This document shows positions 8,813 to 54,464 of a stretch of 64,000 bases of DNA, one piece after another. The position numbers were made by a program, and so were the translations under genes. The stretch's first letter is position 1. The number at the start of each line of letters is the position of its first letter. The stretch covers positions 485,105-549,104 of the forward strand of contig VLTH01000002.1 of assembly GCA_008125075.1 (NCBI GenBank), written 5' to 3'. A model generated the notes under the pieces. It was given only the letters and a program-made list of their open reading frames with translations. It did not search any database and was not told where the DNA came from. The stretch comes from Acetivibrio alkalicellulosi (lineage in GTDB: Bacteria; Bacillota; Clostridia; Acetivibrionales; Acetivibrionaceae).

Positions 8813-8828
8813 TAAAAAGGTGGAAGAG

Positions 8829-10265: not shown

Positions 10266-10287
10266 GCTTAAAAGGGGGAAAAAGTAA

Positions 10288-10986
10288 GTGGATGCTAAGA
10301 GAATTTTAGTTGTTGAGGATGATGAGAGTATAGCTGAGCTTGTAAGAGACTATTTAGAGATAAATGGATTTAATGTTAAAGTGTGTAGAGATGGTGTGGA
10401 AGGACTAAAAAGCGTTAATGAAGAAAAATATGATCTTATCATTTTAGATGTTATGCTACCTGGAATGGATGGATTTGAAATATTGAGAAGAATCCGAGAT
10501 GAGAGAGAAATTCCCATGCTTATTGTTTCTGCAAAAAAGGAGGAATTTGATAAAATAAGAGGTTTAAGGTTAGGCGCGGATGACTATATAACAAAGCCTT
10601 TTAGCCCTGGTGAATTGGTAGCTAGAGTAAATGCCCATATATTAAAATACCAGAGATTAAAGAGCAAGTTTTCTAATAAAGAGATTGAGGTTTTGACAAT
10701 TCGAGGGCTTGAAATACAAAAAGATGCCAGAAGGGTTATGGTAAATGGAAAAGAAATTAATATGGCTCAAAAAGAGTTTGAACTTCTTGTGTTTTTAGCA
10801 CAAAACCCAAATAGGGTGTTTAGTAAAGATGAACTATTTGATAAAATTTGGGGTCTTGATTCTTTAGGAGATGCTGCAACAGTTACTGTTCACATAGGAA
10901 GAATAAGAGATAAGATAGAAGCAGAACCATCAAATCCACAGTATATTGAAACGGTATGGGGAGCAGGTTATAGACTCCGGAACTAA
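10288..10986 (+). CDS. OmpR/PhoB-type response regulator
   Basis: 232 aa. The receiver has the acidic pair in VVEDDES, the phosphorylation site Asp54 in LIILDVMLPG, Ser/Thr in LIVSAKK and Lys in ITKPFSP. The winged-helix DNA-binding domain has the RVFSKDELFDKIWG and VTVHIGRIRDKIE segments. The start is GTG, 10 bases after AAAGGGGG. It is the last gene of the run and probably controls the upstream exporter, as in BceRS-like modules. Confidence 0.9.
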   Translation: MDAKRILVVEDDESIAELVRDYLEINGFNVKVCRDGVEGLKSVNEEKYDLIILDVMLPGMDGFEILRRIRDEREIPMLIVSAKKEEFDKIRGLRLGADDYITKPFSPGELVARVNAHILKYQRLKSKFSNKEIEVLTIRGLEIQKDARRVMVNGKEINMAQKEFELLVFLAQNPNRVFSKDELFDKIWGLDSLGDAATVTVHIGRIRDKIEAEPSNPQYIETVWGAGYRLRN

Positions 10987-11116
10987 ATTTAAACTATTAT
11001 ATAAATATAAGGTTTGACTTCCTTAATAGATAAGGGCATTGTACTGGGATTTTTTAATCGCTATTGCAGCAGCCCCTTAGCTTTTTACTGTGTTTATGTA
11101 AGTTTTAGTTTGTCGT

Positions 11117-11602
11117 CTAACTGAGCTTCCCATTCTTGTTAAGAGAAAATCTGGATACAACTAGCATAACAACTATAGCTATATAAACTATTGCAGAAAA
11201 TATGACTGTAAATAAACCTGTAAATGTTGTAAATTCATTCAAATTACTAAAAAGAGAAGGGAGCTTAGAGTTGTTAATAGCTGCGTGACTTATATAGTAG
11301 GTTGCAATAGATGTAATTACAGGATTAATAATTGTTAGGATTATTGCAGCTATATACATTTTTTTAATAGTAGTACTTAACTGAAGTTTAAATCCTATTA
11401 CTGTTATAATAACTATAAGCACTAGAAATATTTCTCTAAACAAAGTGGTTGTGATGGTTGGCAAATTATACAAAAAATAGTGGGCTTGCATGGAGTAGTT
11501 GTCATTAATATTCATTCTAATGCTAAGGCTAATTATTTGATTCAAAAACATAACACCAATAACGAAAAATGTTATATTGTAGAATTGTTTTAATTGTTTC
11601 AT
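11117..11602 (-). CDS. Unknown four-helix membrane protein
   Basis: 161 aa with four hydrophobic segments at about residues 7-30, 55-78, 84-104 and 129-152. The ATG follows GGAGG by 7 bases. There are no recognised motifs. It is a monocistronic gene convergent with the response regulator. Confidence 0.6.
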   Translation of the reverse strand: MKQLKQFYNITFFVIGVMFLNQIISLSIRMNINDNYSMQAHYFLYNLPTITTTLFREIFLVLIVIITVIGFKLQLSTTIKKMYIAAIILTIINPVITSIATYYISHAAINNSKLPSLFSNLNEFTTFTGLFTVIFSAIVYIAIVVMLVVSRFSLNKNGKLS

Positions 11603-11715
11603 TTTAATTCCTCCGTTTTCATTTTAGATAACCCTTCAGTTAATTATATCATTAAAAATTAAGTCAAGTAAATAAAATAGGTATTTGATGAAAAACCTCA
11701 TAAGGCCGTATATTA

Positions 11716-13464
11716 TTAAGTAGAGTGAGATATAATTTTTAGTTCTTTCCCCTTAAAGCCAATTCCAATACACATTATGTTTTTGTGATGATGAAGCTTT
11801 TGCACACCTTCAGGGTATTTTTTATCTTTAATTTGATTTAATGCTTCATTTGCTAAAATATCTAAAGTCTTAGAGCCTTTTGTACTTTCCCATTTAAACT
11901 CAAAAACGTATGCAGTTTTATTATTATCTTTTGGTATCATAACAATATCAGGACGTCCTAACCCATATTCTTTATTACTTTCAATTAGAAATTCTCTACT
12001 CGTTTGAACAAACAAGCCTAGCATAAATCCATGATGGAAGCTCTCAAATTTTTCTTTTTGTTCACGTTCTTTTACTGTATCCATGCTTGTATCATAGTAA
12101 CTTACCTGACTTAAATACAAATCTTTTAAAAGTCTTTCAAAAGAATCTATGTCATTATTAGTTAAACTTTCTATAATATATTCTACATCACTTAAAATAT
12201 CTTCATCATCTTTTAAATAGTTTATTATCATATCTTCATATATTGTATGTATTTCAAGATTTGGTATCTCGAGTTTGTATGAAAATTTAAGTCTTTTTTG
12301 TTGCCTGTCGTAGGCCTTTAAGTAGCCTGCATGGGTAAGAAAGCTCCAAGCAACGTCAGGGCTAGTTTTTATATTTTGATACACTACATTTTCATCAAGT
12401 TCTTTTTCAACAGATTCACCTGTTATTAGTTTTTCTACAGTTTTTTTACCCTCGAGTTTATCAAGCTGCATTACTTCTTTTATTATTCTATTGTCGCTAG
12501 TATTTGACCAATAGGGTCTAAGTCCGTCTTGAGGAGTACTTAAGAATTTTATAATACTCCATGGATTATAAATAACAGTGTCAATTCCAAAGATATATCC
12601 ATTATACCAAGTTTTTATGTCATGCAAATGCTCTGGCAATTCAAAATAATTTACCATTTCCTCTACTTCAGGTTCAGTAAAGCCAAATTTATCTTTATAG
12701 TTACTTGATAGTATTGTGCTTACCGAAGGATTATTAAAGTCACTGAAAATACTTTCCTGAGCTACTTTCATAATTCCTGTTAGAATTCCTTGCTTTAATG
12801 ATATATTATCCTTAAAACCTTTTACTAAAACACTTTTCATAAATCCAGTAACTTCTTCAAAATACCCTTCAAGATATCCTGCCTGAATAGGTGTATCATA
12901 TTCATCAATAATTACATAACAGTCATTTTTAAAGTATCTTTTAAGATATTTTGTTAAATTTAATAATACATTAGTATACTGTACTTCAGTTCCTTCTAGA
13001 TCCATTATTTTGTTGAATACTTTTTTTTCGGAATGGCTTAAAATATCAGAATCTAAAATATATTTATGTCTTTTGTATTCATTAGCAATTGTTTCTTTTA
13101 AATTTTCATATGTATCAGTCCAATTACTTTGCTTTGCATTTTTGAAAGTTAAATAAACCACTGGATATTTAGACAACTCATTTTTATAGTGTTGACCTGC
13201 TTTAAATATATTAAGATCTGAGAATAGATAACTTACATCATGATCTTCAAAATCATATTTTCTACACTGAGGAAGCTCAAAAAAGTACTTTAACATGCTC
13301 ATGTTTAAAGTCTTTCCAAACCTTCTTGGCCTTGTGATAAGCACTATTTGATTAGGTATATCTATAAGTTCTTTGATTAACAGTGTCTTATCTACATAGT
13401 ACCCATTATTATCTATCAGTTTTTTAAAATTATCTATTCCCTGAAGCACTATTTTTTTAGTCAT
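11716..13464 (-). CDS. AAA-ATPase-like / PD-(D/E)XK nuclease family protein
   Basis: 582 aa. The N-terminus has the family signature GIDNFKKLIDNNGYYVDKT and a Walker A-like ITRPRRFGKT (Lys51, Thr52), then VIIDEYDTPIQAGY as Walker B. The C-terminus has GRPDIVMIP and YVFEFKWE, the PD-(D/E)XK nuclease core. This matches the AAA_ATPase-like plus PDDEXK_9 architecture. Such genes occur in many copies in Clostridia and Bacteroidetes, and their job is not established. The ATG follows AGAGGTG. There are no partner genes. Confidence 0.85.
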   Translation of the reverse strand: MTKKIVLQGIDNFKKLIDNNGYYVDKTLLIKELIDIPNQIVLITRPRRFGKTLNMSMLKYFFELPQCRKYDFEDHDVSYLFSDLNIFKAGQHYKNELSKYPVVYLTFKNAKQSNWTDTYENLKETIANEYKRHKYILDSDILSHSEKKVFNKIMDLEGTEVQYTNVLLNLTKYLKRYFKNDCYVIIDEYDTPIQAGYLEGYFEEVTGFMKSVLVKGFKDNISLKQGILTGIMKVAQESIFSDFNNPSVSTILSSNYKDKFGFTEPEVEEMVNYFELPEHLHDIKTWYNGYIFGIDTVIYNPWSIIKFLSTPQDGLRPYWSNTSDNRIIKEVMQLDKLEGKKTVEKLITGESVEKELDENVVYQNIKTSPDVAWSFLTHAGYLKAYDRQQKRLKFSYKLEIPNLEIHTIYEDMIINYLKDDEDILSDVEYIIESLTNNDIDSFERLLKDLYLSQVSYYDTSMDTVKEREQKEKFESFHHGFMLGLFVQTSREFLIESNKEYGLGRPDIVMIPKDNNKTAYVFEFKWESTKGSKTLDILANEALNQIKDKKYPEGVQKLHHHKNIMCIGIGFKGKELKIISHST

Positions 13465-41762: not shown

Positions 41763-42860
41763 ATGGGAGATAACTATATTAAAATAAAAGATGTTTTAGA
41801 AATAATATTTATAACAACTAATAAAAAGGCAAATATACTTGCTGATACTTACTTAATTAAAAATCCTTCAATTATTTCAAAGTGGAAGAGTAATAAAGTT
41901 ATACCTACAGAGAATGATATCTTAATAATTGTAGATTTTGCAATGAGTGAATCTACTGATTCACAGCGCAAGATAATGAGAGAAAGACTGGAAAAATTAA
42001 TCATGGATAGTAATATTAATGATGATTTAAAGAGCGTAATTCTAAGTATGGAGGACTTTAAGTCATTTTTATCTGAGATATTGAGTATCTGTGCATCAAT
42101 TCGATTACACAATACTAATTGTGAATCTATTGAAACTGTAAAAAAAATAGATTACACTAGCCTTGAATCTAATGCCAATAAAATAACTGCCTTTTCAGAA
42201 AATACTCCTGATAGATACTCAGGTGTGTTAGAATTTGACATGCTTCTTACAAAGGATGGAGGTAATGGATTTGTAGGTAAAATATCTAAGTCAGATATAT
42301 TAATTAAAAAAGGTAATAATTCAAGTAAAGATCATAATATACTAGGAAAGTTATATAACAAAGCCAAATCAAAGAGTTTTATAAGTACTATAGTAATAGG
42401 CATTATTTCAACCTTTTTTGTTATACAGATAGCAAATAGCCAAATACCTTTAAGTACTCCTGTTATTTATGAAGAAAGGCAAAATGATAGTTTTCCATAT
42501 GAAGAATACTTGCGTACTAAATATTGGGACAAAGCAGAAGAAAAAGCAACTTTTCTCCAAAATCAATTGACAAGCAATGAACAAAAATTAACAGAAGAAG
42601 AGACAAACAAGGAGGTTATAGAGGAACAAGCTGAAAAACAGGATAACTCTCAAAAAGAAGAAATTGGTCAAAAAGTTATACATAACCAAACTAATAATGA
42701 CACAATAAAAAATGATACCGAAAATAGTGAATCAATAAAATTAGATAAAACTCAAAATAACATAGACGGCGTAGAGGGGAATACTACCATAATTACAAAT
42801 ATAAATGGAGATAGAAACATTAATGTTATTGGAGATAATATCTACATACATATGGAGTGA
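41763..42860 (+). CDS. Membrane-anchored protein with HTH-like N-terminus and shared NGxxNIxVxGDxI tail
   Basis: 366 aa from the ATG that follows AGAGGAAG. Residues about 1-80 contain NPSIISKWKSNKVIPTENDI, which looks like the recognition helix of a lambda-repressor-like fold, but no family is recognised. One membrane helix lies at about 206-226 (STIVIGIISTFFVIQIAN). The extracellular part has a Glu/Lys/Gln-rich coiled stretch and ends in ITNINGDRNINVIGDNIYIH. This tail motif recurs in both following proteins. The layout resembles ToxR-type membrane regulators. Function is inference. Confidence 0.6.
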   Translation: MGDNYIKIKDVLEIIFITTNKKANILADTYLIKNPSIISKWKSNKVIPTENDILIIVDFAMSESTDSQRKIMRERLEKLIMDSNINDDLKSVILSMEDFKSFLSEILSICASIRLHNTNCESIETVKKIDYTSLESNANKITAFSENTPDRYSGVLEFDMLLTKDGGNGFVGKISKSDILIKKGNNSSKDHNILGKLYNKAKSKSFISTIVIGIISTFFVIQIANSQIPLSTPVIYEERQNDSFPYEEYLRTKYWDKAEEKATFLQNQLTSNEQKLTEEETNKEVIEEQAEKQDNSQKEEIGQKVIHNQTNNDTIKNDTENSESIKLDKTQNNIDGVEGNTTIITNINGDRNINVIGDNIYIHME

Positions 42861-42865
42861 TCAGC

Positions 42866-44506
42866 ATGAATAAACTGAACAAATTCTTTGGAGAAGGCAG
42901 ATTTTCTGCATGTATATGCAAAATATACTTTAAATATCTAGTTATTATTATCATCATATGTATATTGTTTTTTCAAGCATCAATGAAAACAATTTATGCT
43001 CAAACTGTGAATGTTTCAGTTAGTGCTGTTGATATTACAGGAATCAATCAAATAGTACAAAATGGGATAGTTTACATTGAATTAAGAGAAGTATTTAAGA
43101 GTTTAGGATGGAGAGTCCAATGGAATGATACTGATAAATCAATCATTTGCATAAAAGATAATGATATATTGATTTTTGAGGTAAATAGCAAAGAGGTTAT
43201 TTTTAATGAAGAAACTATTGTTCTTGAATGTGAAGTAATAATGAATAATGGAGTAGCTTTTGTTCACAGCAAGTTTATTGCAGAGCATTTTGGACAAGAA
43301 GTCAGATGGGATAGAGAAAGAAATATCGCTATTATTTCAGAAAATCGTACAATTGACATGCTGATAAATGGAAAAAGAAATATTGTTATAATGGGAGACG
43401 GTATAATTGTTAACATTTTTGAGCCATATTACATGGATACATTACTTGATCAGATAAGCTATGCTAATAGCATCCTTAATAGAAACAATCCTGAAGGTGC
43501 ACTTAAAAAGTATAAAAATATTACAATAAACCTTTGTGATAAAGAAAGCCCTAATATATATGGTGAAGTACTAAATAGTATTGGCAATGCATATAGCATG
43601 ATGGCAAGTGAGAAGAATACAAGAAAAAACATACAGTTGGCAATTAAAAATTATGAAAAAGCTCTGAGTTATACTGAAAAGGATGCAAAAAGCCTTTTAT
43701 TAAATAACCTTGGAAATGCATATAAAACATTATGGGAAGTATCAGGAAACAAAGAGATGTTAAATAAAGCATTAGATTGTTATTTAGAGGCACTAAACTA
43801 TTTTAAGTATTCCATTCTTAATGAAGCACTTATTTATTATAATTTAGGAATGATCTATAATGATTTAGAAAATACACAGCAGGCAGTACATTATCTTAAC
43901 ATGTCCTATGAAATTTATCAAAAAGTATCTGAAGAATATTTCTTTTTGTGCAGTTTACCAGATTTCTATGCGGAAGCGCAATTTGGGCTTGGGAATGTGT
44001 GTAAAGGCCTCTTTCGTATTAATCCTTCAAATGATTATTTTCAAAAGGCCATAGTAGCATATGAAAGTGTATTGGATGTTTGGAGCATTGAGGAGCATCC
44101 TTATAACTATGGTAAAACTCAAGAGTGCATTGCTGAACTTTATAAAAATGAAGGTACTTATGAAAGCTTAATGGAGGCAGTTAGAAGATATAATAAAAGC
44201 TTAAAGGTTATCACAATAGAAAATCAACCTGTTAAGTATGCAAATATATTGGTGGCAATTGGAGATGTTTATATTATTATGTGGGGGAAAAGAACAGATA
44301 GACATTCAAAAGAACAGGCCATAATTTTATATGAAGAAGCAAAAAATATTTTGAATCCATTTGAAGATCCTGTAAAATATCGCTACATTGACAGTAAAAT
44401 TAGTTATATTCAGAAAAAAGACAATTATATAATAAAAATATTTGATTGCATGCCAGATGTTCTAAAAAATATATTAATATTAATTATTTTAGGGAGGTTT
44501 CAATGA
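42866..44506 (+). CDS. Exported copper-amine-oxidase-N / TPR protein
   Basis: 546 aa. A signal segment (YLVIIIIICILFFQASMKTI, cleavage near YAQ) leads to a copper amine oxidase N-terminal type (stalk) domain at about 40-165 (YIELREVFKSLGWRVQWNDT), not the oxidase itself. Then comes the motif INGKRNIVIMGDGIIVNIFE, and about six TPR-like units (YGEVLNSIGNAYSMMA, LNNLGNAYKTLWE, AQFGLGNVCKGLF). The C-terminus is hydrophobic (VLKNILILIILGRF). The ATG follows GGAG, 5 bases after the previous stop. It overlaps the next gene in ATGA. Confidence 0.75.
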   Translation: MNKLNKFFGEGRFSACICKIYFKYLVIIIIICILFFQASMKTIYAQTVNVSVSAVDITGINQIVQNGIVYIELREVFKSLGWRVQWNDTDKSIICIKDNDILIFEVNSKEVIFNEETIVLECEVIMNNGVAFVHSKFIAEHFGQEVRWDRERNIAIISENRTIDMLINGKRNIVIMGDGIIVNIFEPYYMDTLLDQISYANSILNRNNPEGALKKYKNITINLCDKESPNIYGEVLNSIGNAYSMMASEKNTRKNIQLAIKNYEKALSYTEKDAKSLLLNNLGNAYKTLWEVSGNKEMLNKALDCYLEALNYFKYSILNEALIYYNLGMIYNDLENTQQAVHYLNMSYEIYQKVSEEYFFLCSLPDFYAEAQFGLGNVCKGLFRINPSNDYFQKAIVAYESVLDVWSIEEHPYNYGKTQECIAELYKNEGTYESLMEAVRRYNKSLKVITIENQPVKYANILVAIGDVYIIMWGKRTDRHSKEQAIILYEEAKNILNPFEDPVKYRYIDSKISYIQKKDNYIIKIFDCMPDVLKNILILIILGRFQ

Positions 44507-47172
44507 AAACAAAAATTTTATTATTTATTGCAATGATTGCAGTTTCATTAATATTTCAAAGGATGCCCAGTGGAAATTTTGATAAGTCAGTGAAAGTTAT
44601 GTTGAATGGCGGAGAAATAACTCTTAGTATTAATCCACATATAGAAAAAGACAGTATCTTGTTACCTATGAGAGAATTGTTTGAATTATTTGGATTTGAA
44701 GTGTTATGGGATGAAGTTAACCGGACTGCTAAAGCATTAAAAGATGCTACTACTATACAGATTAAACCAAAAAGCAGTATTATAAAAATAATGGAGTTAG
44801 ATATAGAAATATCAGTTCCTGCAATTATAATAAATGATAGGATGATGGTTCCTATTGAGGTTATAGAATCCGGTATTAATATTAATGTACAGTGGATAGA
44901 AAGTGAAAAAACTTTATATATCTTTGGACATAACTATTATGATGTTTTAATTTTTGGAGATGACAATTTATTTGTATCTGGAAATAACATTTTAGCAAAT
45001 ATATCTCCTAGATATGACGTTGAAAAGGTAGATAGCATTATTGGCGATGCTGATAACTTATTGGTTGGTAAAAACTATAATGGTGCTATAAAAAGGTATG
45101 AAAAAATCTTACGGCACATTTCAGTTGAAGATAATCCTAAGGAATATATACATATAATGGTGAATATGGGTAATGCATACGTAGAAATGTCTAGGTTGAT
45201 TGACTTCGAAGAAAATGCTATGAGAGCAGTATCTATATATCAGTTGGCTTTAAAATCAAGTTCTATAGATAATTACCCTTTAAAAAAAGCTCAGGCACAT
45301 ATGGGAATGGGATATGCTCATTTAGTTTTAGCATCAAAAACAAGGGATGTTAAGAAAAATGTTGATATAGCGGTAGAATTGTTTGAAGAATCATTGAGCG
45401 TTTTTGATCAAGTAGAAAATGAGTATAATTATGCATATATTAAGATGTTAAATGGATATGCATATCAGTTGTTATTTATCAATATAAATAGAGAAAACTA
45501 TATTGATAAAATATTGAAATCTTTTGAAGAAGCATTGAATGTTTTTACAACAGATAAATATCCTAATGAGTATAAATGTTTAGTGAATTTAAAAGGTTTA
45601 ACATACATAATGTCTTTTCAGACAACTGGTAATTCTGAACATTTAAAAATGGCTTACGAAATATTTAATAGTTTATTAAAACTAGATAAAATAAAAGAAT
45701 ACTCTTTTGCTTATGCAGATATACAAATAGCATTGAGCAAAATATACTTGTATTTAACAAGTCAGGATTTTCAAGAGGAGTATTATAATAAAGCTATAAA
45801 TTTGCTCAAAGAAGCGCTAGAAGTATATTCAATTGAAAAGAATCCATGGGAATATGGAAGTTGTCAAGTTAGCTTAGGAACTGTTTATATGAAGAAGGCA
45901 TATTTTTTTAATCCCTTAAAAAATATAGACATGTCTCTAGAAGCATTTTCTAATGCATCCAAAGTGTTTAATATAAGAGAAAATCCGGTTACGTATGCTG
46001 TGTTGCAAAAATATACAGGGGATGCATATGCTGTAAAAGCAGGATATACAAATTACGATAACGATTACAATAGTTCTATACAAGCATTTGAAAATGCTCT
46101 TAAAATTTTGACATTAGACAAGTATCCTAGTTTATACGCTGAAGCTAATGCAGAATTAGGTAAAATATACAATATAATAGGTCTCTCATCAAATAAGGAT
46201 TATAATAACCAAAAGGCAATAATGTGTTTTAATGAAGCTTTAAAAGTATATAAAATTGATACTGATCCAGCATTTTATGGGTATATTCAGGGAATGCTCG
46301 CAATTTCCTTTGGGGAATTGTCAAAAGTTAGAGATACTAAAGAGAATATACTTAAATCCATAGATAGCTCCAACAAGGCACTGGAAATATTTGACACAGA
46401 TAACATTCCATATCTTTACGCTACAACTCAAATTAATCTTGGAATTGTATATTCTTATCTTGCAAAAATTGAAGATACGAGAGATAATATAGAGAAAAGT
46501 ATAGAAGCTTTAAATGAAGGACTTGGGTTTTTTAGTTTGGAGAATTCGACTTCAATGTATAGAACAATTATGCTTGCTATGTCAGAATCCTATCTTATAT
46601 TGTCAAGTGTTTACGAAAAGGAGCAAAATTTAAATAATGCCTTAAGTATATGTTTTGAAGTATTTGAAATGATGGGAAGTAGAGATTCATCTTTAGCATA
46701 TGCTAGATTACAGAGCATTATGTCACAAGTATATTTATCTATGGCTGATAATGGTAAGTCTCATGAGTACTATCAAAATTCAATTGATTCAATTAATGAA
46801 GCAATTAGAGTATTTGAAGAAAAAAACAGCAGCAGTAATCAATGGGAATCAAAAGTTAAATTAGCTAATATTTATCATAGTCTGTATAATGCAAATAATG
46901 AACATAACAATTTACTTAAGGCACTTAAAATATATGAAGAAGCGTTAGATTATTTTGACAAGGAAAGCAGTCCTAATATGTATGGCAAAATAATGGGTTA
47001 TTTAGGTGATGCTTATGTCAGTCTTTCAAAAATTAAAAATAATAAAGAAAACATAGATAAGGCAATGGATTACTATGCCAAGGCTCTAAGTATTTACACA
47101 GATGATAATAATCAATTAATTCATCAGGAAATAAAAGATAAGATTACTAGAGCAAAAAAGCTTAAAAAATAA
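44503..47172 (+). CDS. Exported copper-amine-oxidase-N / long TPR protein
   Basis: 889 aa. Signal peptide MKTKILLFIAMIAVSLIFQ, then a copper amine oxidase N-type domain (about 25-150, LLPMRELFELFGFEVLWDEV), the motif FGDDNLFVSGNNILANI, then about 14 TPR-like units of 40-55 residues. These have the pattern NP..YA..Q..LG..Y..L....N..KSI..F..AL.VY, the type often met with CHAT proteases, but no CHAT domain is present. The protein likely forms an extracellular superhelical scaffold. GGGAGG precedes the ATG, and translation is coupled to the gene before. Confidence 0.78.
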   Translation: MKTKILLFIAMIAVSLIFQRMPSGNFDKSVKVMLNGGEITLSINPHIEKDSILLPMRELFELFGFEVLWDEVNRTAKALKDATTIQIKPKSSIIKIMELDIEISVPAIIINDRMMVPIEVIESGININVQWIESEKTLYIFGHNYYDVLIFGDDNLFVSGNNILANISPRYDVEKVDSIIGDADNLLVGKNYNGAIKRYEKILRHISVEDNPKEYIHIMVNMGNAYVEMSRLIDFEENAMRAVSIYQLALKSSSIDNYPLKKAQAHMGMGYAHLVLASKTRDVKKNVDIAVELFEESLSVFDQVENEYNYAYIKMLNGYAYQLLFININRENYIDKILKSFEEALNVFTTDKYPNEYKCLVNLKGLTYIMSFQTTGNSEHLKMAYEIFNSLLKLDKIKEYSFAYADIQIALSKIYLYLTSQDFQEEYYNKAINLLKEALEVYSIEKNPWEYGSCQVSLGTVYMKKAYFFNPLKNIDMSLEAFSNASKVFNIRENPVTYAVLQKYTGDAYAVKAGYTNYDNDYNSSIQAFENALKILTLDKYPSLYAEANAELGKIYNIIGLSSNKDYNNQKAIMCFNEALKVYKIDTDPAFYGYIQGMLAISFGELSKVRDTKENILKSIDSSNKALEIFDTDNIPYLYATTQINLGIVYSYLAKIEDTRDNIEKSIEALNEGLGFFSLENSTSMYRTIMLAMSESYLILSSVYEKEQNLNNALSICFEVFEMMGSRDSSLAYARLQSIMSQVYLSMADNGKSHEYYQNSIDSINEAIRVFEEKNSSSNQWESKVKLANIYHSLYNANNEHNNLLKALKIYEEALDYFDKESSPNMYGKIMGYLGDAYVSLSKIKNNKENIDKAMDYYAKALSIYTDDNNQLIHQEIKDKITRAKKLKK

Positions 47173-47278: not shown

Positions 47279-48916
47279 TTACTTATTGTATAAATGAATT
47301 ATATAATTATACAAATCATTTATGCAATTTTTGTTATATAAATCAAAAGACTTAATATCTTTATTAATGGGAATATTATTGTTTTTCATTGTAAAAGGTG
47401 TTAGTAGTATAATATGGCAGTCTGTTTTTTTTAATAAGCAAATATACTCATCTACTATGCTGTTATGTTCAAAAGCAATAATAATATCAATGTCAGTATC
47501 AAAAAGTTTACTTTTATATTCAAGAATACTAGCACTTTTATTTACAGCGTCAATTCCATAAAGCAATATATCAGGTGTATATAGACCACATATTGCTTTT
47601 AGGCCAGCAGGATCGTATTCTGAAAGAATTGAATCATTAAATAGGGGAGCATAAATAAATTCATACAGAATGCCAAGGCAAGTTTCAGTGGCACATATTG
47701 GGTTATATTCATCTTTAAAAAAACATTTATTGAGCCCTTTCATTACACCTAAAAGATAGTTGCCTGTAAAATCATTAATTGTAACTAATGGAACATCAAC
47801 TTTTTTTAACATTGGATTATTTAAATAGTTAAAAACTGAAGGGTGCCAGATTTTTAGTTTCTCATTTGATAGTTTAACATCAATTTTATTAGATAAATCC
47901 TTGTCGTCTAAATAGACTATGTTTTTACTGCTATCAATAATTGCTTGAAGTATGTTATCGCTAGAACAATCAGAGTGATTTGAGGCAAGTTTGCTTCCAA
48001 TTATAATAACAGTGTCATATTGATCTATGTTTGATGACAAATGATCTTTAACACATTTTGCCGCATCACAAAAGCAATTGGCAGTAAAATTAATTACTTT
48101 AGCTATATTAAAAAAATACTCTGTATTAAGATAATTCATATTGGTAAAGTTGATGTTGAAAATAATAACATTTTCTACCCAATCAATAGTTTTATATAGA
48201 TACGGAAATTGTGTTTTTTCACTTTTATTCAAAGCATTCTCCATCATTTTATGCTTCACTTTTTCAACTGAAAGTTTAGGATTATTTTTTAAAATATTAT
48301 ATACTTTTGCAGTAATAAATGGAGTAGCATAACTATTACAAGCTTCAGTGTAAAAAGACTCTCCATTTATCTGCTTAAGTTCAAAAGTACTTGAAGTTGT
48401 AATTTCAATACCATCATTTGGGTGATAATTATATATATACTCACCTTCTCTTACTTTTCCGGCTTTAACACCTATCACACTTGAAAAATATGATGGGTAA
48501 GTAATAATACTTTGATTACTACAAGCAGAAACTAATATAATTCCCTTGTTCGAAGCTTTTTTAATTATTGTTCTTAATTTAAAACTATCTTTATAATAAA
48601 CAGTTCCTAAGCTTAAGTTAATAATTTTGATACCTGATTCAACACACCAATCTATTGCTTTCACTAACTGATCAGGTACACCTTTTCTTTCATGATTTAA
48701 TATTTTTATACTACTAATAGAAGCATCAGGGGCAAATTTTTTAATAATTCCTGCACATATGCTACCATGATTAGGAGTAGAAGAAATAAAATCATGGTGG
48801 TTAATAATGTTTAATTCAGACGTTATTTCGATTTTGTGTATTAATGTTCCAACGTCAAAAAAGTTTTCGTAAACCCCATCATCTATAACAGCCACATTTA
48901 AATTTGTATAATGCAT
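47279..48916 (-). CDS. Subtilisin-like (S8) protease of the RiPP cluster
   Basis: 545 aa from the ATG that follows AAAAGGAT by 7 bases. The triad is Asp12 in AVIDDGV, His50 in NHGSICAG and Ser195 in CNSYATPF, with the oxyanion Asn134 in SACSNQS. The remaining 300 residues are not recognised; they look alpha/beta (YDTVIIIGSKLASNHSD, VPLVTINDFTGNYLLG). No signal peptide or pro-domain is present, so it should act in the cytoplasm. As the exporter has no C39 peptidase, this enzyme is the likely leader peptidase. It is the last gene of the minus-strand cluster. Confidence 0.8.
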   Translation of the reverse strand: MHYTNLNVAVIDDGVYENFFDVGTLIHKIEITSELNIINHHDFISSTPNHGSICAGIIKKFAPDASISSIKILNHERKGVPDQLVKAIDWCVESGIKIINLSLGTVYYKDSFKLRTIIKKASNKGIILVSACSNQSIITYPSYFSSVIGVKAGKVREGEYIYNYHPNDGIEITTSSTFELKQINGESFYTEACNSYATPFITAKVYNILKNNPKLSVEKVKHKMMENALNKSEKTQFPYLYKTIDWVENVIIFNINFTNMNYLNTEYFFNIAKVINFTANCFCDAAKCVKDHLSSNIDQYDTVIIIGSKLASNHSDCSSDNILQAIIDSSKNIVYLDDKDLSNKIDVKLSNEKLKIWHPSVFNYLNNPMLKKVDVPLVTINDFTGNYLLGVMKGLNKCFFKDEYNPICATETCLGILYEFIYAPLFNDSILSEYDPAGLKAICGLYTPDILLYGIDAVNKSASILEYKSKLFDTDIDIIIAFEHNSIVDEYICLLKKTDCHIILLTPFTMKNNNIPINKDIKSFDLYNKNCINDLYNYIIHLYNK

Positions 48917-48935
48917 AAAGAATATCCTTTTTAAA

Positions 48936-49226
48936 CTAAATATTTGAACAAGCTTTTTGAAGATGAACTTCACGCGAAATAATGCTTATTATATTTTGCA
49001 AGTTATTAAATTCTCCATTGATAATATAGTCAGAAGGTATAGTTATACTAAAAACCTGTTCAATCTCAAAAAACAAATATACAAGATCCCTTGGTTGAAA
49101 GTTTATTTCGTATCCTAAAAGATTTTTGTTCTTTAGCTCTTCCCATTTACACAAATAATCTCTGTTGAATTTTTCCTTTAGTAAGAGCAATATTTTATCA
49201 ATAATGATTTCTTGTTTCATATACAT
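48936..49226 (-). CDS. Acyl-carrier-protein-related peptide maturation protein
   Basis: 96 aa from the ATG after GAGG. The C-terminal half LVYLFFEIEQVFSITIPSDY, then NNLQNIISII, follows the ACP fold. Where ACPs have the DSL motif with the phosphopantetheine Ser, this protein has FQPRDL, so no attachment Ser is visible. It fits what I recall as the TIGR04069 'peptide maturation system acyl carrier-related' family. It sits between the TIGR04066-like gene and the subtilase. Confidence 0.72.
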   Translation of the reverse strand: MYMKQEIIIDKILLLLKEKFNRDYLCKWEELKNKNLLGYEINFQPRDLVYLFFEIEQVFSITIPSDYIINGEFNNLQNIISIISREVHLQKACSNI

Positions 49227-49242
49227 TTTGTTCGCCTCACTT

Positions 49243-50370
49243 TCATATACACTCAGTTTGTCCATATTTAGATAGTAAATCAATAATATATTCTGACATA
49301 TCTTGATTATCTTTTTTATTTAGTATGTTAAATATTTTTTGATTATATTTTTTGTAAGGGGAGATCTTTTTATCAACATAGCTAGAAGGTAAAATTACAT
49401 AATCTGTTTTATTTAAATCCGGTGATTGACTATAATCAAGAACAGAATTTGCTATATTGAAACAATCTGTAGAGCAACCTAACCTATACTTAGCAAACTT
49501 CTCTAATTCAATAAAATACTTTTCAAGATACTCTTGATAATGACAAGAAATAATTGTGGAATCAGGTTTTACAGCCTGTGAAACTTCAAATGCCAAAACA
49601 CCAAACCTGTTTGTTAATGTGTTACTTACAGGCATTATTGCACCTGGTATACCAATAATAATCAAATCAGGTTGCTCAGTCATTTCGATGTTCTTAATGT
49701 AATGGTTAAAAAGGACTATTTTATTGGTTTCTGTTACTTTATTACTATACATAAAATGTGGAAAAGAGTGAAACCCAAGAAATTCACAACATGCTCTACT
49801 TCCAATTTGGCTAATACGATAGCCCATTTTACTAATGTTTTCTCTTAAAGAAAGTTGGATTTCAAATTTATTTGTTTTTTCTCCTATGCCAAGAATGAAT
49901 ACTACAGGGGTATTAATCTCATGAATACACTCATGTTCAAATGGTATATCATAGCATATTACATCCTCCTCAATCATACCATTATATTGAACTTCAACTC
50001 CATTCGTATTACATTTTTGAATTATTAAGTCTAAAACTTTCTTACAAAGTGAAAAATTAATAAGTATATTCTTTTTTAGATCAATAGCCATAAAAATATT
50101 TGGAAGTATTATACTTTCGAAGTCCAAAATATGTTCTGATTCACAAAACAAAACAGTATCGCATTTTTTTAGTGAGTCTTCAAAATTGTAATCTACTATT
50201 ATTCCTAATTCATCTCCGCCATCAGCAAATGCTCCATCTTTTCCTGATAGGCTCCAACCTCTTGGAGAAACAAGAGCAACTATTTCGTGATTATTTAACA
50301 AATCTTTATGTCTTAGTATTGAAGAAAAATTTATATCGTATGGATAAACTAAAGTTTTATACTTATTCAT
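49243..50370 (-). CDS. Peptide maturation system protein (TIGR04066-like)
   Basis: 375 aa from the ATG after GGAGG, overlapping the end of the radical SAM gene by 8 bases. The N-terminus KYKTLVYPYDINFSSILRHK, the GWSLSGKDGAFADGGDELGI segment and PDLIIIGIPGAIMPVSNTLT suggest two Rossmann-like lobes. I recall this architecture as the TIGR04066 family of clostridial peptide maturation clusters. The chemistry is not known to me. Placement shows it works with the radical SAM enzyme. Confidence 0.7.
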   Translation of the reverse strand: MNKYKTLVYPYDINFSSILRHKDLLNNHEIVALVSPRGWSLSGKDGAFADGGDELGIIVDYNFEDSLKKCDTVLFCESEHILDFESIILPNIFMAIDLKKNILINFSLCKKVLDLIIQKCNTNGVEVQYNGMIEEDVICYDIPFEHECIHEINTPVVFILGIGEKTNKFEIQLSLRENISKMGYRISQIGSRACCEFLGFHSFPHFMYSNKVTETNKIVLFNHYIKNIEMTEQPDLIIIGIPGAIMPVSNTLTNRFGVLAFEVSQAVKPDSTIISCHYQEYLEKYFIELEKFAKYRLGCSTDCFNIANSVLDYSQSPDLNKTDYVILPSSYVDKKISPYKKYNQKIFNILNKKDNQDMSEYIIDLLSKYGQTECI

Positions 50371-51814
50371 TTTGTGCCTCCACAATTTTAAAAATATTTG
50401 AATCTTCAAAGCTGTATCCAAATTCATTTAGCATACAGTAATCCTTTAAATGTTCTTCCAAAGAATATTTAACCACTTTGCAGTTAAATAGTTTTTTTTC
50501 AACCGATAATTTATCTATACCATCTGCTGATACTGCACATAATGTACAAAATTTAAAAGCCCAGCAATCTTTGCAATTTTCAGAAGTTATTTCACCTATA
50601 TTTAACAGAGAACGAATTTTATCATAATCAAATCCTTTATCAATATGACCAATTTGCATAATTTTTGATTTTTCGCTCACTCTTTCACAAGGATAAAAGT
50701 TTCCATTAACATCTATGAACAATCTCTGTGCGCCAGGAATACATGGGCCACTTGGATGTCCTTTATCTGGCATAGAAGATGAAAAGCCTCTTGAATCTAC
50801 TAAGATTTTTCTTAAGTGATCATAATATCTTTCTACTAATTTAGATACACTTTTTTTGTCTAATTTATTCAGTTTCGAGAGGTACAGTTTAAATAATTCA
50901 TATTTTAATTGAGTTTCATGATCTTCATTATTAGTATTTCTTGCTACAGAATGATCATCTGTTATATCTGATACATTTAGGTATAAATCTTTAACAATAT
51001 CATAACTTGTAAAAAAATCATTAATACAACTAAAATCATTATTAGGATCTAATACTGCATTAAACATAACTTTACTTAAAAAATCAGGATAATTATGTTT
51101 TATATTTTCTAAACCATTTTTAATTTTTTCAAAAGATCCGCATCCACTTGACGCAAACTTTCTGTTTTTGTCATGTACTTCCTTAGGTCCGTCTAAACTA
51201 ATTGTAGTTAATACATTATGAGAGTTGAAAAAATTTATAATCTTATCATTTAAAAGAGTACCGTTTGTAGTAACACCAAATGTTAGTCTTTTACCATTTG
51301 ATATTTTTTCTGAGTACAAAATTATATCTTTTATAAGTTCAAATTCTATTAGTGGTTCTCCTCCATAAAAACCAATATGGACACTATCCACATCTCTTGA
51401 GTTATCAAACAAAAACTCTACGCCTTTTTTTGCTAACTCAATGTTCATTCTTGCATCTTGGTGTGTTCTATTTATGTAACTTCCTGAATATGTACAATAC
51501 TCACATCTTAAATTACACTGTTGTGTAACTTGCAAAATAACCATTTTTATTTTACTGCTCATATAGAATTCCAACATATCACTAAGAGGATGAACTACTT
51601 CTTTAACTTTTTTGGAGGATAAAAAACCTCTATCTTTTAGTTCTTTTACTTGTTCACATTCATAGATTTTATAAGATGAATTTAAAGAAAAATTATTTCT
51701 TAGATTTTCAAATACATTTTTTTGAATTTTGATAATGGCATTTGTATTAACATCAAAAATATATTGACCTCTATTTGTCTCAAATAAATGTATTAACGGG
51801 CTGTCTTTATACAT
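50363..51814 (-). CDS. Radical SAM/SPASM maturase of Cys-rich peptide (CcpM-like)
   Basis: 483 aa from the ATG that follows GGAG. An N-terminal recognition-type domain of about 80 residues precedes the radical SAM motif CNLRCEYC (Cys100, Cys104, Cys107). GFYGGEPLIEFELI binds SAM. The SPASM domain follows from about residue 355: CIPGAQRLFIDVNGNFYPCE, CKDCWAFKFCTLC and a final Cys in FNCKVV, enough for two more iron-sulfur clusters. The type makes thioether or other crosslinks in Cys-containing precursors. It lies downstream of the two precursors. Confidence 0.88.
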   Translation of the reverse strand: MYKDSPLIHLFETNRGQYIFDVNTNAIIKIQKNVFENLRNNFSLNSSYKIYECEQVKELKDRGFLSSKKVKEVVHPLSDMLEFYMSSKIKMVILQVTQQCNLRCEYCTYSGSYINRTHQDARMNIELAKKGVEFLFDNSRDVDSVHIGFYGGEPLIEFELIKDIILYSEKISNGKRLTFGVTTNGTLLNDKIINFFNSHNVLTTISLDGPKEVHDKNRKFASSGCGSFEKIKNGLENIKHNYPDFLSKVMFNAVLDPNNDFSCINDFFTSYDIVKDLYLNVSDITDDHSVARNTNNEDHETQLKYELFKLYLSKLNKLDKKSVSKLVERYYDHLRKILVDSRGFSSSMPDKGHPSGPCIPGAQRLFIDVNGNFYPCERVSEKSKIMQIGHIDKGFDYDKIRSLLNIGEITSENCKDCWAFKFCTLCAVSADGIDKLSVEKKLFNCKVVKYSLEEHLKDYCMLNEFGYSFEDSNIFKIVEAQNE

Positions 51815-51859
51815 TTTGATCTCCAATCTTATATAATAATTTTTATGGATAATTTATTT

Positions 51860-51895
51860 GAAGTTGGTATAATCCATATGGATTATACCAACTTC
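51860..51895. other. Perfect 36-bp palindrome between precursor and maturase genes
   Basis: GAAGTTGGTATAATCCAT is exactly complementary to the next 18 bases. On the minus strand (the operon direction) no U-tract follows; on the plus strand TTTATT follows. Half of it is repeated at about 52273-52287 after the precursor remnant. It may be a partial terminator or processing site giving more precursor mRNA than enzyme mRNA. Confidence 0.65.
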
Positions 51896-51910
51896 TTTAT
51901 TAAAATACTA

Positions 51911-52081
51911 CTATGCCTGCATTATAATAGGTTGCCATTGCCTAGTACCTTGAAATACTTGTACATTTGCAACTGAACTATTTCCACATGTGCAAGGGCA
52001 CCAAGTCCAACATCCACTACCCATATAATACGCTTCTACAGTATGTTTTGTTTCCTTTATATTTTTACCTAGTTTTTTCAT
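51911..52081 (-). CDS. RiPP precursor peptide 1 (CLI_3235-class)
   Basis: 56 aa. The leader is MKKLGKNIKETKHTVEAY; the core is YMGSGCWTWCPCTCGNSSVA, then NVQVFQGTR and the tail QWQPIIMQA. Cys are at 24, 28, 30 and 32. The ATG follows GGAGGTG by 6 bases. The leader with KLGKxI...TVEAY is what I know from the CLI_3235 family of clostridial peptide precursors. It is 38 residues shared in part with precursor 2. It lies directly before the maturase. Confidence 0.88.
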   Translation of the reverse strand: MKKLGKNIKETKHTVEAYYMGSGCWTWCPCTCGNSSVANVQVFQGTRQWQPIIMQA

Positions 52082-52210
52082 ATTTTCACCTCCTTTTTTA
52101 TAAAACTACTACAGCATAAGAAGTTTGCGCATACCTCAGGATATGTAGCATATTTTTTTATTTGAATTCTTTCAACCCCTCGAGGATAGTTGAAGGAATC
52201 AAATGCTAAA

Positions 52211-52270
52211 TTAACAATTACAAGCTTTATTTCAATATTATCACTAAAGCTATCAATCAATTATCTATAT
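52211..52270 (-). pseudogene. Stray 3' end of the ABC exporter gene
   Basis: The bases match the last 60 of the exporter gene (about 52701-52760), including IDSFSDNIE and the stop region GCTTGTAATTGTTAA, but with small deletions that shift the frame. The homology continues downstream through the precursor 1 leader. It marks a tandem duplication and is not a gene. Confidence 0.8.
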
Positions 52271-52286
52271 AATACCAACTTCTTTA

Positions 52287-52347
52287 TTAAATCAATATGA
52301 AAGGTTGCCATTGCCTAGCACTTTGAAATACTTGTACATTTGCAACT
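52287..52347 (-). pseudogene. Remnant C-terminus of a third precursor
   Basis: Reads VANVQVFQSARQWQPFILI and stop, like the end of precursor 1, but has no leader and no Cys core. A 25-base stretch is identical to precursor 2 at 52440-52464. Half of the 36-bp palindrome follows it. It is probably the original 3' end of precursor 2, cut off by the insertion at 52348-52439. Confidence 0.75.
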
Positions 52348-52439
52348 TGTAGTGTAACCCCCTAAAGTCTAGATGATAACATTTTTTAAGAAAATTACTA
52401 GATATTTTTTAAGACTATATTATTAGCGTTACGTGTACC
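52348..52439. mobile_element. 92-bp insertion with an IS-like end
   Basis: It begins TGTAGTGTAACCCCCTAAAG then TCTAGATGATAAC, which resembles the terminal repeat of IS3/IS150-type elements (TGTA.TG.ACCCC..AAGT.TAGA). The other side ends GCGTTACGTGTACC and shows no clear matching repeat. A 25-base direct repeat flanks it on both sides. No transposase is present, so it is at most a relic. Confidence 0.5.
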
Positions 52440-52574
52440 TTGAAATACTTGTACATTTGCAACTGAACTATTTCCACATGTACAAGAGGGGCACCAAGGT
52501 ATACACGAATAAAGAATAGAATAAGCTTCTACAGTATGTTTTGTTTTTTTTATATTTTTGCCTAATTTCTTCAT
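52398..52574 (-). CDS. RiPP precursor peptide 2 (CLI_3235-class)
   Basis: 58 aa. Leader MKKLGKNIKKTKHTVEAY, then SILYSCIPWCPS, CTCGNSSVANVQVFQGTR and a tail NANNIVLKNI that differs wholly from precursor 1. Cys are at 24, 28, 31 and 33. AAGGAGATG precedes the ATG. The tail is coded by the 92-bp insertion, not by the sequence that ends precursor 1. It is the first precursor after the exporter gene. Confidence 0.86.
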   Translation of the reverse strand: MKKLGKNIKKTKHTVEAYSILYSCIPWCPSCTCGNSSVANVQVFQGTRNANNIVLKNI

Positions 52575-52700
52575 ATTTTCATCTCCTTTTTTTAAACTAC
52601 TACATCATAAGAAGTTTGTGCATATCTCAGAATATGTAGTGTATTTTTTATTTAAACTCTTTCAACCCCTTAAGGATAATTGAAGGAATCAAATACCAAA

Positions 52701-54464
52701 TTAACAATTACAAGCTTTTTTTTCAATATTATCACTAAAACTATCAATTAACTTTCTATACGAACTATTATTTTGGTATAGCTCATTATGTTGCCCATAA
52801 GCACCAATACTTCCATTTTCAATAAAAATAATTTTGTCTACAGTTTTTAAAACCTGCATTTTATGAGTCACCATTATAACAGTTTTTTCTTTTAACTTGT
52901 TTATAATTAAATCAATCATCTGTAGCTCTGATTCTACATCATAATTAGATGTAGCCTCATCTAAAACAAGTATTTTTGAATCTTTTGATATTGCTCGTGC
53001 CATAGCAATTTTTTGTTTTTGACCACCTGATAAATTTGCACCATTAATACCAACTAACGTGTCGTATTTATCAGGAAGACTTTGAATAAATTCATCAATT
53101 TTGCTTGCTTTTGCAGCTTTCAATGCTTTAGGTTCTTTTTTAGAAGAAGGATAAATATTTTCTTTTATTGTTCCATTAAAAAGGTAAGCATTTTGGCTTA
53201 CTACAGATATTAATTTTCTATAATCTCTAATAGAGATTTTACTTATATCTATACCACCAAGAAATATCTTCCCCTGATCGGGCTTTAATAGTCTTAAAAC
53301 TAAATTTATCAGAGTTGTTTTCCCACATCCATTTGAGCCAATTATAGCTACTTTTTCTCCTTCAGCTATTTCGAAAGTAATATTCTTTAGTATATTTTTC
53401 TCCTTATCATAATTAAATGATATACTTTCGAAATTTAAATTAGCGTTTATATTAAAATCAACTTTTTGAAAAGTTGCTCCCCTTGTCTCTTCTTCTTCCA
53501 TTTCTAAGAACTTAAAAAATCTTTTAGCAGATGGAAGTATGTCGGAAAAATTATAACCGATGTTTAGTACAGATGATATAGGTGCAATTACATAGATGCA
53601 ATATGTTATAAAAGCCATTAAGCCTCCCACTGTAAATTGCGTATTAAATATAAGATAACCACCTAGAATATATAATAAGCCTGTAACAATTTCAAACATT
53701 ACTGTTTCAGATATTTCATTAACTTTATCTAGTATGTTTGTCTTAGCCTCAATCTTTATTAGACTTCTTTGCTTTTTAATAAATTCACCTAACTTAATTC
53801 TATCTATTCCCATTAGTTTAATTTCTTTCATTCCAGAAATCGCATCTCCAAACCAAGAAGAATAGTGCCCATATGCAGCCATGTAATTGGTAAATATAAG
53901 TTGTCTCTTTTTAGCTAGAAACTTAACAGTTTTATACTTAATAGGTGTTATAGCCAAAACAATTAATGTTAATTTCCAATCGATTATTAAAAGCCCAACA
54001 ATACCTCCAAGTATTTTAAAAATTTGATTTACTATAAAAAACAAACTACTATCTGATATTTTAGAAATATTTCGAACATCCATATTAAGATTATTCATTA
54101 TTTCACCATAATTTACATTATTGTAATAACTCATATTTAACTTCATAAGATGCTTAAAGGCTTCTTTCGATAACTCATATGGCATCATTAAACTTATAAA
54201 TATCCTGAATTTTGCTTCTAAAAGACCAATTCCTTGATTTAAAATTACAAGTGAAAAACTTGCTAAAACAAGTATTATAAGTAATTTGAAATTATTATTT
54301 ATCAATCCTTCATCCACTATTTGTTTGCTTAATAAAGGAATAAAAGTACTTATTGCTGCTGAAACTATTAAACACGAAATAATAATAACAATATTTTTTA
54401 TATAGGGTCTAAAAAGTCCAAGTAGTCTTTTTAATATTTTTTTATCATCGTGTTTTATTTTCAT
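52701..54464 (-). CDS. ABC exporter (fused membrane and ATPase) of the RiPP cluster
   Basis: 587 aa. Six membrane helices occupy about residues 20-300 and the ATPase the rest: Walker A GSNGCGKTT, signature LSGGQKQKIAM, Walker B ILVLDEATSNYD and the switch His in MVTHKM. There is no N-terminal C39 peptidase, so leader removal must be done elsewhere. The C-terminus ends IEKKACNC. The ATG follows AAAGGG. It is the first gene of the minus-strand cluster and likely exports the mature peptides. Confidence 0.9.
   Translation of the reverse strand: MKIKHDDKKILKRLLGLFRPYIKNIVIIISCLIVSAAISTFIPLLSKQIVDEGLINNNFKLLIILVLASFSLVILNQGIGLLEAKFRIFISLMMPYELSKEAFKHLMKLNMSYYNNVNYGEIMNNLNMDVRNISKISDSSLFFIVNQIFKILGGIVGLLIIDWKLTLIVLAITPIKYKTVKFLAKKRQLIFTNYMAAYGHYSSWFGDAISGMKEIKLMGIDRIKLGEFIKKQRSLIKIEAKTNILDKVNEISETVMFEIVTGLLYILGGYLIFNTQFTVGGLMAFITYCIYVIAPISSVLNIGYNFSDILPSAKRFFKFLEMEEEETRGATFQKVDFNINANLNFESISFNYDKEKNILKNITFEIAEGEKVAIIGSNGCGKTTLINLVLRLLKPDQGKIFLGGIDISKISIRDYRKLISVVSQNAYLFNGTIKENIYPSSKKEPKALKAAKASKIDEFIQSLPDKYDTLVGINGANLSGGQKQKIAMARAISKDSKILVLDEATSNYDVESELQMIDLIINKLKEKTVIMVTHKMQVLKTVDKIIFIENGSIGAYGQHNELYQNNSSYRKLIDSFSDNIEKKACNC

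Follow-up and report, generated by a model that had tools for sequence, protein, structure and literature searches.

What does a run of seven minus-strand genes, in which two very short frames stand between an exporter and a radical SAM enzyme, make, and how is its product matured? The run extends from position 54464 to 47279, in the direction of transcription, of a 64,000-nucleotide stretch of Acetivibrio alkalicellulosi DNA (contig VLTH01000002.1), the whole of which we call the window. We propose that it is an operon of the CLI_3235/CcpM kind for a ribosomally synthesised and post-translationally modified peptide (RiPP), and we give this reading, with the whole pathway proposed below, a probability of about 0.75. 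The cluster is real, complete and probably working; it belongs to this already named kind, and it probably makes small cross-linked cysteine-rich peptides. Its features are as follows.

52701 to 54464, minus strand: ABC (ATP-binding cassette) exporter, 587 amino acids, with transmembrane and ATPase domains (PF00664, PF00005).
52398 to 52574, minus strand: precursor P2, 58 amino acids, core SCIPWCPSCTCG; TIGR04065 31.0 bits (cut-off 26); ribosome-binding site AAGGAGATGAAAATATG.
52269 to 52347, minus strand: broken third precursor tail, which in translation reads VANVQVFQSARQWQPFILI and has no leader; self-blastn match, 77% over 93 columns, to 51974 to 51882.
52210 to 52269, minus strand: second copy of the last ~60 bases of the ABC gene, brought here by the tandem duplication described below.
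51911 to 52081, minus strand: precursor P1, 56 amino acids, core GCWTWCPCTCG; TIGR04065 33.1 bits (cut-off 26); ribosome-binding site AAGGAGGTGAAAATATG.
51860 to 51895, minus strand: perfect 16-bp hairpin between P1 and the radical SAM gene (z −5.5).
50363 to 51814, minus strand: radical SAM/SPASM peptide maturase CcpM, 483 amino acids; TIGR04068 608.7 bits (cut-off 500); three plus seven invariant cysteines.
49243 to 50370, minus strand: TIGR04066 protein, 375 amino acids, with a predicted DUF1611/DgcN fold and an altered P-loop, GIGEKTNKFE; TIGR04066 426.2 bits (cut-off 200).
48936 to 49226, minus strand: acyl carrier protein (ACP)-like protein, 96 amino acids, with Pro aligned at the phosphopantetheine-serine position; TIGR04069 68.3 bits (cut-off 70).
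47279 to 48916, minus strand: subtilase with a QhpE-like protease domain; PF00082 73.6 bits; NF049966 (QhpE) 90 bits, under its cut-off of 165.
47279 to 48196, minus strand: subtilase C-terminal region, in part a distant relative of TIGR04066 (hhalign), with the P-loop lost in the alignment.

All of these genes are intact open frames, and their content, places and order stand as the preliminary description of this DNA had given them. The family names given there prove right by profile search: three of the four models are over their curated cut-offs, the small peptides matching the precursor family TIGR04065, and the ACP-like protein falls 1.7 bits short of TIGR04069 (E 5.9e-19). With Pfam, radical SAM, Peptidase_S8 and the two ABC domains are over cut-off and SPASM is under it (18.3 bits against 21.5), while nothing is over cut-off for the precursors, the TIGR04066 protein or the ACP-like protein; a C39 peptidase domain of the exporter is absent among the 21 Pfam rows. 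The spacing, taken from the coordinates, is 126 nt between the exporter and P2, 316 nt between P2 and P1, and 96 nt between P1 and the radical SAM gene. The CcpM and TIGR04066 frames overlap by 8 nt, and 16 nt separate the latter from the ACP-like gene. For the subtilase, the ATG at 48916 (AAAAAGGATATTCTTTATG), which leaves a 19-nt gap, is the more likely start than the GTG at 48973, from which the longer frame would overlap its neighbour. That the genes form a single operon we infer from their order and spacing; a promoter scan was uninformative (66 found, 58.1 expected in shuffles).

The same genome carries a second complete cluster (L006, on G000:C2 at about 663.5 to 670.3 kb); its genes stand in the same order, and it has a single precursor, MKKLGKKIKSTKLTVEAYDGMCICFCNCNCGG... 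Its precursor (39.4 bits) and CcpM are over their cut-offs, its TIGR04066 protein scores 449 bits and its TIGR04069 match reaches 59.2 of 70; the two maturases are 61% identical. Beside this second cluster, at 3936 to 5937 of L006 and on the minus strand, lie an apparent response regulator and histidine kinase (by eye), pointing away from it and possibly forming a peptide-sensing pair. Among five genomes of the genus, TIGR04068 is over cut-off in this one only. For TIGR04066 the numbers of genomes with a match, this one included each time, are 1 of 14 in the family, 21 of 391 in the class, of which 15 are over cut-off, and 6 of 398 in the phylum, of which 3 are over cut-off. Since so few genomes at each rank have TIGR04066, the CLI_3235-type system is scattered in its distribution. 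In g270, a genus of the same order, a single genome can hold as many as five TIGR04066 matches. On plasmids, TIGR04066 found no match, and the DNA of the window matched six records over short lengths (at most 3% of the query). The nine loci that carry names come from Clostridium senegalense, Ruminiclostridium cellobioparum (two) and six metagenome-assembled genomes, including Herbinix, Thermincola and Paenibacillus.

We compared 46 TIGR04066 loci, after dropping three duplicates and one short fragment and excluding short weak hits (L039, L066, L068 to L071). A radical SAM gene adjoins TIGR04066 in 45 of them, the sole miss (L049) being at a contig end; 38 loci have an ACP-like gene and 30 an ABC gene nearby. 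Of the 43 loci with at least 3.5 kb downstream, 17 have a subtilase of 100 amino acids or more on the same strand. From these counts, the constant unit is CcpM, the TIGR04066 protein and the ACP-like protein, usually with a precursor; the exporter and the protease are often near, not always. A home-made leader profile, a pattern and reading by eye turned up 37 more short Cys frames at the homologous clusters, with leaders comparable to those of the window; the L006 precursor is the one among them that was scored with TIGR04065 as well. The two outcomes that would have refuted the first description, small peptides without a profile match and homologous clusters without such frames, thus did not occur. 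Two or three CcpM clusters with differing precursors stand next to each other in one genome at L101, L102 and L103, where some exporter and protease frames are fragmentary. At L099, positions 8213 to 13001, a 1596-residue open frame with a subtilase match (usual length, 550 residues) runs downstream of the CcpM cluster to the end of the fetched stretch.

What would the maturase do to such precursors? The CxxxCxxC motif and seven further cysteines, the iron–sulfur ligands expected of such an enzyme, are invariant in all 42 aligned CcpM frames (441 to 559 amino acids, the window's included; L089 to L092 were excluded). The nearest solved sequence is 5wgg/5why; 5wgg, deposited as "Radical SAM domain protein", matches residues 7-231, the N-terminal region included, and is an entry that we take to be CteB, a thioether-forming enzyme. 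The other best models are those of the lachnocin, RumMC (sactipeptide, 206.7 bits) and PapB (ranthipeptide, 192.6 bits) maturases. All of these outside models match far below their cut-offs, so that the thioethers may be of either the alpha or the non-alpha kind.

The precursors themselves were compared as a set of 40, made up of the two window peptides, the 37 from other loci and one Paenibacillus polymyxa precursor from PMC7343975. Duplicates (L046, L093, L094) and weaker candidates (L082, L088, L120) were left aside, as were the peptides of lachnocin type in L091 and L092; in several cases the start was cut back by eye to the methionine of the leader, and L085 and L119 match the leader poorly. 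The number of Cys in the stretch ranges from 2 to 8 with a median of 5, and its length from 6 to 19 residues with a median of 12. The cores of the window had been called compact and distinct from the class. This claim is not supported, as their four Cys over 9 and 10 residues lie within the family range and 21 of the 40 precursors have a stretch of 12 residues or shorter; compactness is thus rejected as a novelty.

Two other products could come from the same cluster, and both seem improbable to us. In the first, the core would be a metal-binding or redox peptide, its CxC serving as free thiols or a metal site, and CcpM would make one thioether or none. CxC is indeed present in 34 of the 40 cores, as in many metal-binding peptides, but the number of Cys and their spacing vary widely, unlike a fixed metal site, and the radical SAM/SPASM neighbour and its iron–sulfur cysteines are kept almost throughout (45 of 46 and 42 of 42). 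In the second, CcpM would form carbon–carbon or carbon–oxygen links of the cyclophane kind, with the core Trp as partner and no thioethers. In its favour, a Trp stands between cysteines in both window precursors and models of cyclophane-forming SPASM enzymes do match CcpM below cut-off (for example YhhB, 100 bits against 445). However, the best outside matches include the thioether-type maturases RumMC and PapB, themselves below cut-off, and a Trp lies inside the Cys stretch in just 7 of the 40 precursors, two of them being the window pair, whereas all 40 have Cys. Thioether cross-linking of a short Cys core is the more likely chemistry.

The two precursors had been described as sharing a leader, and this is borne out: both begin MKKLGKNIK.TKHTVEAY. 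By self-blastn, 52760 to 52435 matches 52269 to 51945 with 85.7% over 329 columns, a segment that takes in the last part of the ABC gene together with the spacer and the precursor. The pair thus arose by a tandem duplication of these three parts, with an offset of 491 bp, which left a second ABC end and the broken tail of a third precursor between P1 and P2. The leaders differ by five synonymous and one nonsynonymous change in 18 codons (6 of 54 bases), the tails (TCGNSSVANVQVFQGTR) by three synonymous and none nonsynonymous in 17 codons (3 of 51 bases), and the cores by two synonymous and 13 nonsynonymous in 12 codons (15 of 36 bases). As judged from these alignments, it is clear that leader and tail are conserved and that the core has diverged. 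The contrast among the three segments gives a Fisher p of 0.0005 with borders chosen after inspection of the alignment; per site, the core has 13/29.3 nonsynonymous and 2/6.7 synonymous changes. A C-G-[ND]-like start of the tail is seen in 8 of the 40 precursors, including the window pair, and the conserved tail may be either part of the product or a recognition sequence that is later removed. The debris between the precursors, a broken third tail and a leftover ABC end, could also be read as a sign of decay, in a silent cluster whose second precursor is a by-product of duplication. We regard this as highly improbable, given that all listed frames are intact and that the changes between the two precursors in leader and tail are nearly all synonymous.

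Between P1 and the radical SAM gene stands the perfect 16-bp stem (minimum free energy −27 kcal/mol). A perfect stem of at least 10 bp is found at the equivalent place in 15 of 26 clusters, against 0.12 expected from dinucleotide shuffles; the survey covered intervals of 30 to 400 nt and omitted P2, and some loci are close kin with a near-identical stem, so the 15 are not all independent. In L006, the interval has a 16-bp stem outside 8620 to 8760, and the segment 8620 to 8760 folds no better than shuffles (z 0.89). For the hairpin of the window, no T-run was found downstream on the coding strand, and a scan listed it as terminator-like on the plus strand only. The hairpin may act in processing or attenuation and so yield an excess of precursor over enzyme.

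The TIGR04066 protein, as modelled with AlphaFold2 from ten sequences (mean pLDDT 82.7, pTM 0.83), matches DUF1611 structures over nearly its whole length: 2g0t with Z 23.3 (306 residues, root-mean-square deviation 3.9), 2obn with Z 22.4, and 7xrj, which is DgcN and deposited as an N-acetyltransferase, with Z 19.1. Later matches (Z of 15.3 or less) cover, nearly all, the C-terminal domain only. We accordingly describe it as a protein of predicted two-domain DUF1611/DgcN-type fold, mainly on the strength of the fold match. At the sequence level the link is suggestive only. Pfam PF07755 (DUF1611) gives no match to the window protein up to E 0.1, and comparison with one DUF1611 sequence is not significant (probability 0.8%, E 0.074); with eight DUF1611 sequences the probability is 29.8% and E 0.00056, against E 0.21 and 0.41 for the radical SAM and ABC controls. 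The P-loops are nonetheless in register, G-x5-GKMT in the DUF1611 protein of L121 and G-x5-NKFE in the window. Here the GK and T of the canonical G-x5-GK-x-T are replaced by NK and E, the N being itself replaced in some relatives, and E164, K168, F169 and Q172 are conserved, each in 41 of 47 aligned proteins. A P-loop-type site that was altered and then conserved suggests a role that differs from ordinary ATP hydrolysis. At E 1e-10, DUF1611 gave no match in 249 genomes. A literature search for DUF1611, radical SAM and peptide together found no paper in the collection searched, and searches for DgcN gave unrelated papers only among the matches listed, or none.

For 23sacE, the corresponding protein of the SacP23 cluster, a role as immunity protein was put forward in the available text of PMC10731318. 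We consider immunity less likely, indeed quite improbable, for the TIGR04066 protein. The predicted DUF1611/DgcN-type model speaks against it, the exporter alone could confer immunity, and in other radical SAM clusters the QhpE-like protease carries a related domain fused to it, an arrangement that agrees better with peptide maturation.

That fusion is seen in the subtilase. Its catalytic triad, D31, H69 and S214 (P0006 numbering), is kept in all 21 aligned proteins. No signal peptide or prodomain is seen by eye ahead of the catalytic domain, and because the frame begins directly at that domain the enzyme is probably cytoplasmic, like QhpE. The C-terminal 300 residues are in part related to TIGR04066 (hhalign E 7e-7, and 4.3e-15 with larger sets); the window subtilase alone does not match the TIGR04066 model at E 1. 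Kinship of this region with DUF1611 would be at most indirect, through TIGR04066, since the alignment's own comparison with DUF1611 is not significant (E 0.075) and in each fold search with the subtilase model the 50 matches listed are subtilisin-type proteases, which in one search cover the first ~252 residues. In other loci the fused domain matches the TIGR04066 model directly, below its cut-off of 200: L089 with 84.6 bits (positions 3 to 358) and L091 with 57.1 bits, as do the frames behind L090 and L092 (72.7 and 52.1 bits). A P-loop-like Lys is kept in these four, as GKFT in L089 and L090 and as NK in L091 and L092, and is absent in the 17 other aligned subtilases, the window's included. 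In the stretches fetched for L089 to L092 no free TIGR04066 gene was found; three of the four genomes have one elsewhere. That the Lys is kept only where no free TIGR04066 gene is nearby suggests that the free-standing protein has taken over the job of the fused domain. At L091 (3378 to 3819, a tandem pair) and L092 (9042 to 9188) there are likely lachnocin-type precursors, LKK[IV]N.AN.STV.TLGCHCGC, adjoining a lachnocin maturase (tested in L091, where it scores 805 bits against a cut-off of 550) and the protease with the TIGR04066-like domain; a literature search for lachnocin found no paper in the collection searched.

The ACP-like protein completes the constant unit. At the phosphopantetheine-serine position the window protein has Pro, and the 40 family rows, window included, have Pro in 20, Ala in 13, Gly in 3, Thr in 2 and Ser in 2. 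Five of the 45 aligned rows were excluded: the proteins of L090 and L100, both of which do have the serine, the near-copy L046, the fragment L095 and an extra copy at L109. The serine that defines an acyl carrier protein is thus missing in the window and in 38 of 40 rows, for which we reject a true acyl carrier. Because the usual acyl loading would not occur without it, the protein is most likely a docking module.

The pathway that we propose would run as follows. P1 and P2, with one leader, would be made in excess of the enzymes, the hairpin uncoupling or limiting downstream expression. The N-terminal region of CcpM would bind the leader, and CcpM would install Cys-based thioether cross-links in the short Cys core, assisted by the TIGR04066 and ACP-like proteins as non-classical partners. 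The intracellular QhpE-like protease would then remove the leader by a cut close to the TVEAY motif; secretion of the product would fall to the ABC exporter, which lacks a peptidase domain. The core would be free to vary while leader and tail are held constant, and the most likely use would be as a bacteriocin or signal toward related Gram-positive bacteria.

In favour of this reading are the family models, the second cluster, the conserved neighbourhood, the iron–sulfur cysteines, the 5wgg and QhpE matches, the changes between P1 and P2, and the hairpin. Several points weigh against it. TIGR04069 is under cut-off in both clusters of the genome. The protease is not a fixed part, because 26 of the 43 TIGR04066 loci have no nearby same-strand subtilase of at least 100 amino acids. 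The divergence of the core rests on one gene pair with post hoc borders, and its per-site rates agree with free drift under lost constraint no less than with selection for change. The product and its chemistry are predicted from the genes. Finally, the sole activity that we found reported for the family is that of SacP23 from P. polymyxa #23. Subtilosin A, which Bacillus subtilis itself can make, has a mass of about 3.4 kDa. Since this is about the mass of the SacP23 peak, that activity may belong outside the family and is to be treated with care. According to the available text of PMC10731318, SacP23 was active against several Gram-positive bacteria after expression in B. subtilis, its mass was 3404 Da, which does not fit the predicted core of 4455 Da, Edman sequencing failed, and the authors name subtilosin A as its closest relative.

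The CLI_3235/CcpM family has curated models and is still poorly understood. The window offers a compact, intact example, and its natural precursor pair, differing mainly in the core, is a test of the tolerance of CcpM. The wider interest lies in the two helper proteins: the fold assigned to TIGR04066, the lack of the carrier serine in its ACP-like partner and the fusion to the protease turn the label "peptide maturation system protein" into testable statements. We tentatively suggest, as an idea more doubtful than probable, that TIGR04066, a repurposed DUF1611/DgcN-type protein, and its carrier-dead ACP-like partner form an unrecognised helper module of radical SAM peptide maturation, common to several RiPP classes. 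In CcpM clusters it would stand alone; in lachnocin-type and other clusters, whose P-loop is less degenerate, it would be joined to the leader protease. Once modified, the peptide might be bound or presented by the module, which would also license removal of the leader; the module might even acylate the peptide as DgcN, annotated as an N-acetyltransferase, does its own substrate. The available parts of the SacP23 and sacti5 papers (PMC10731318, PMC7343975) give neither a structure of the product nor a tested role for TIGR04066 or TIGR04069.

Apart from these genes, two neighbouring long proteins are encoded on the plus strand of the window at 42857 to 47172, with an apparent copper-amine-oxidase-type N-terminal domain and TPR-like repeats (by eye).

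How does the cluster compare with known systems? All four components of the CLI_3235 family RiPP system are present, three of the four models being over cut-off. Unlike that system generally, the window owes its two precursors to a tandem duplication and has TIGR04069 just under cut-off, and the genome has two complete clusters. The SacP23 cluster has the same set of precursor, ABC exporter, CcpM, TIGR04066, TIGR04069 and subtilase in the available text of PMC10731318, and sacti5 of P. polymyxa Kp10 (PMC7343975, also seen in part) resembles the window together with it. These differ in having one precursor, listed first, with 7 Cys in 13 residues (PMC7343975), and the extra genes 23sacB and 23sacG. 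The lachnocin-type cluster (NF038170), represented here by L091, with L092 of similar appearance, has a related maturase, a QhpE-like protease with a TIGR04066-like C-terminal domain and a short Cys precursor; unlike the window, it has no free-standing TIGR04066 gene in the 13 kb fetched, and its leader and core differ. The DUF1611/DgcN proteins (2g0t, 2obn, 7xrj) share with the TIGR04066 model a fold of near whole length and the register of the P-loop, whereas the window protein escapes PF07755 and has the GK and T replaced. The closest functional parallel to the proposed pathway is the qhp operon (QhpD, QhpE, QhpF) of quinohemoprotein amine dehydrogenase. Its substrate is an enzyme subunit, the available passages on qhp mention neither TIGR04066 nor an ACP-like protein, and the window subtilase, at 90 bits, stays under the QhpE cut-off of 165. 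Yet the two share a radical SAM cross-linking enzyme, a cytoplasmic subtilisin-like leader protease and an ABC exporter, and in the passages of PMC7876137 available QhpE cuts the leader from the cross-linked subunit in the cytoplasm, ahead of ABC export.

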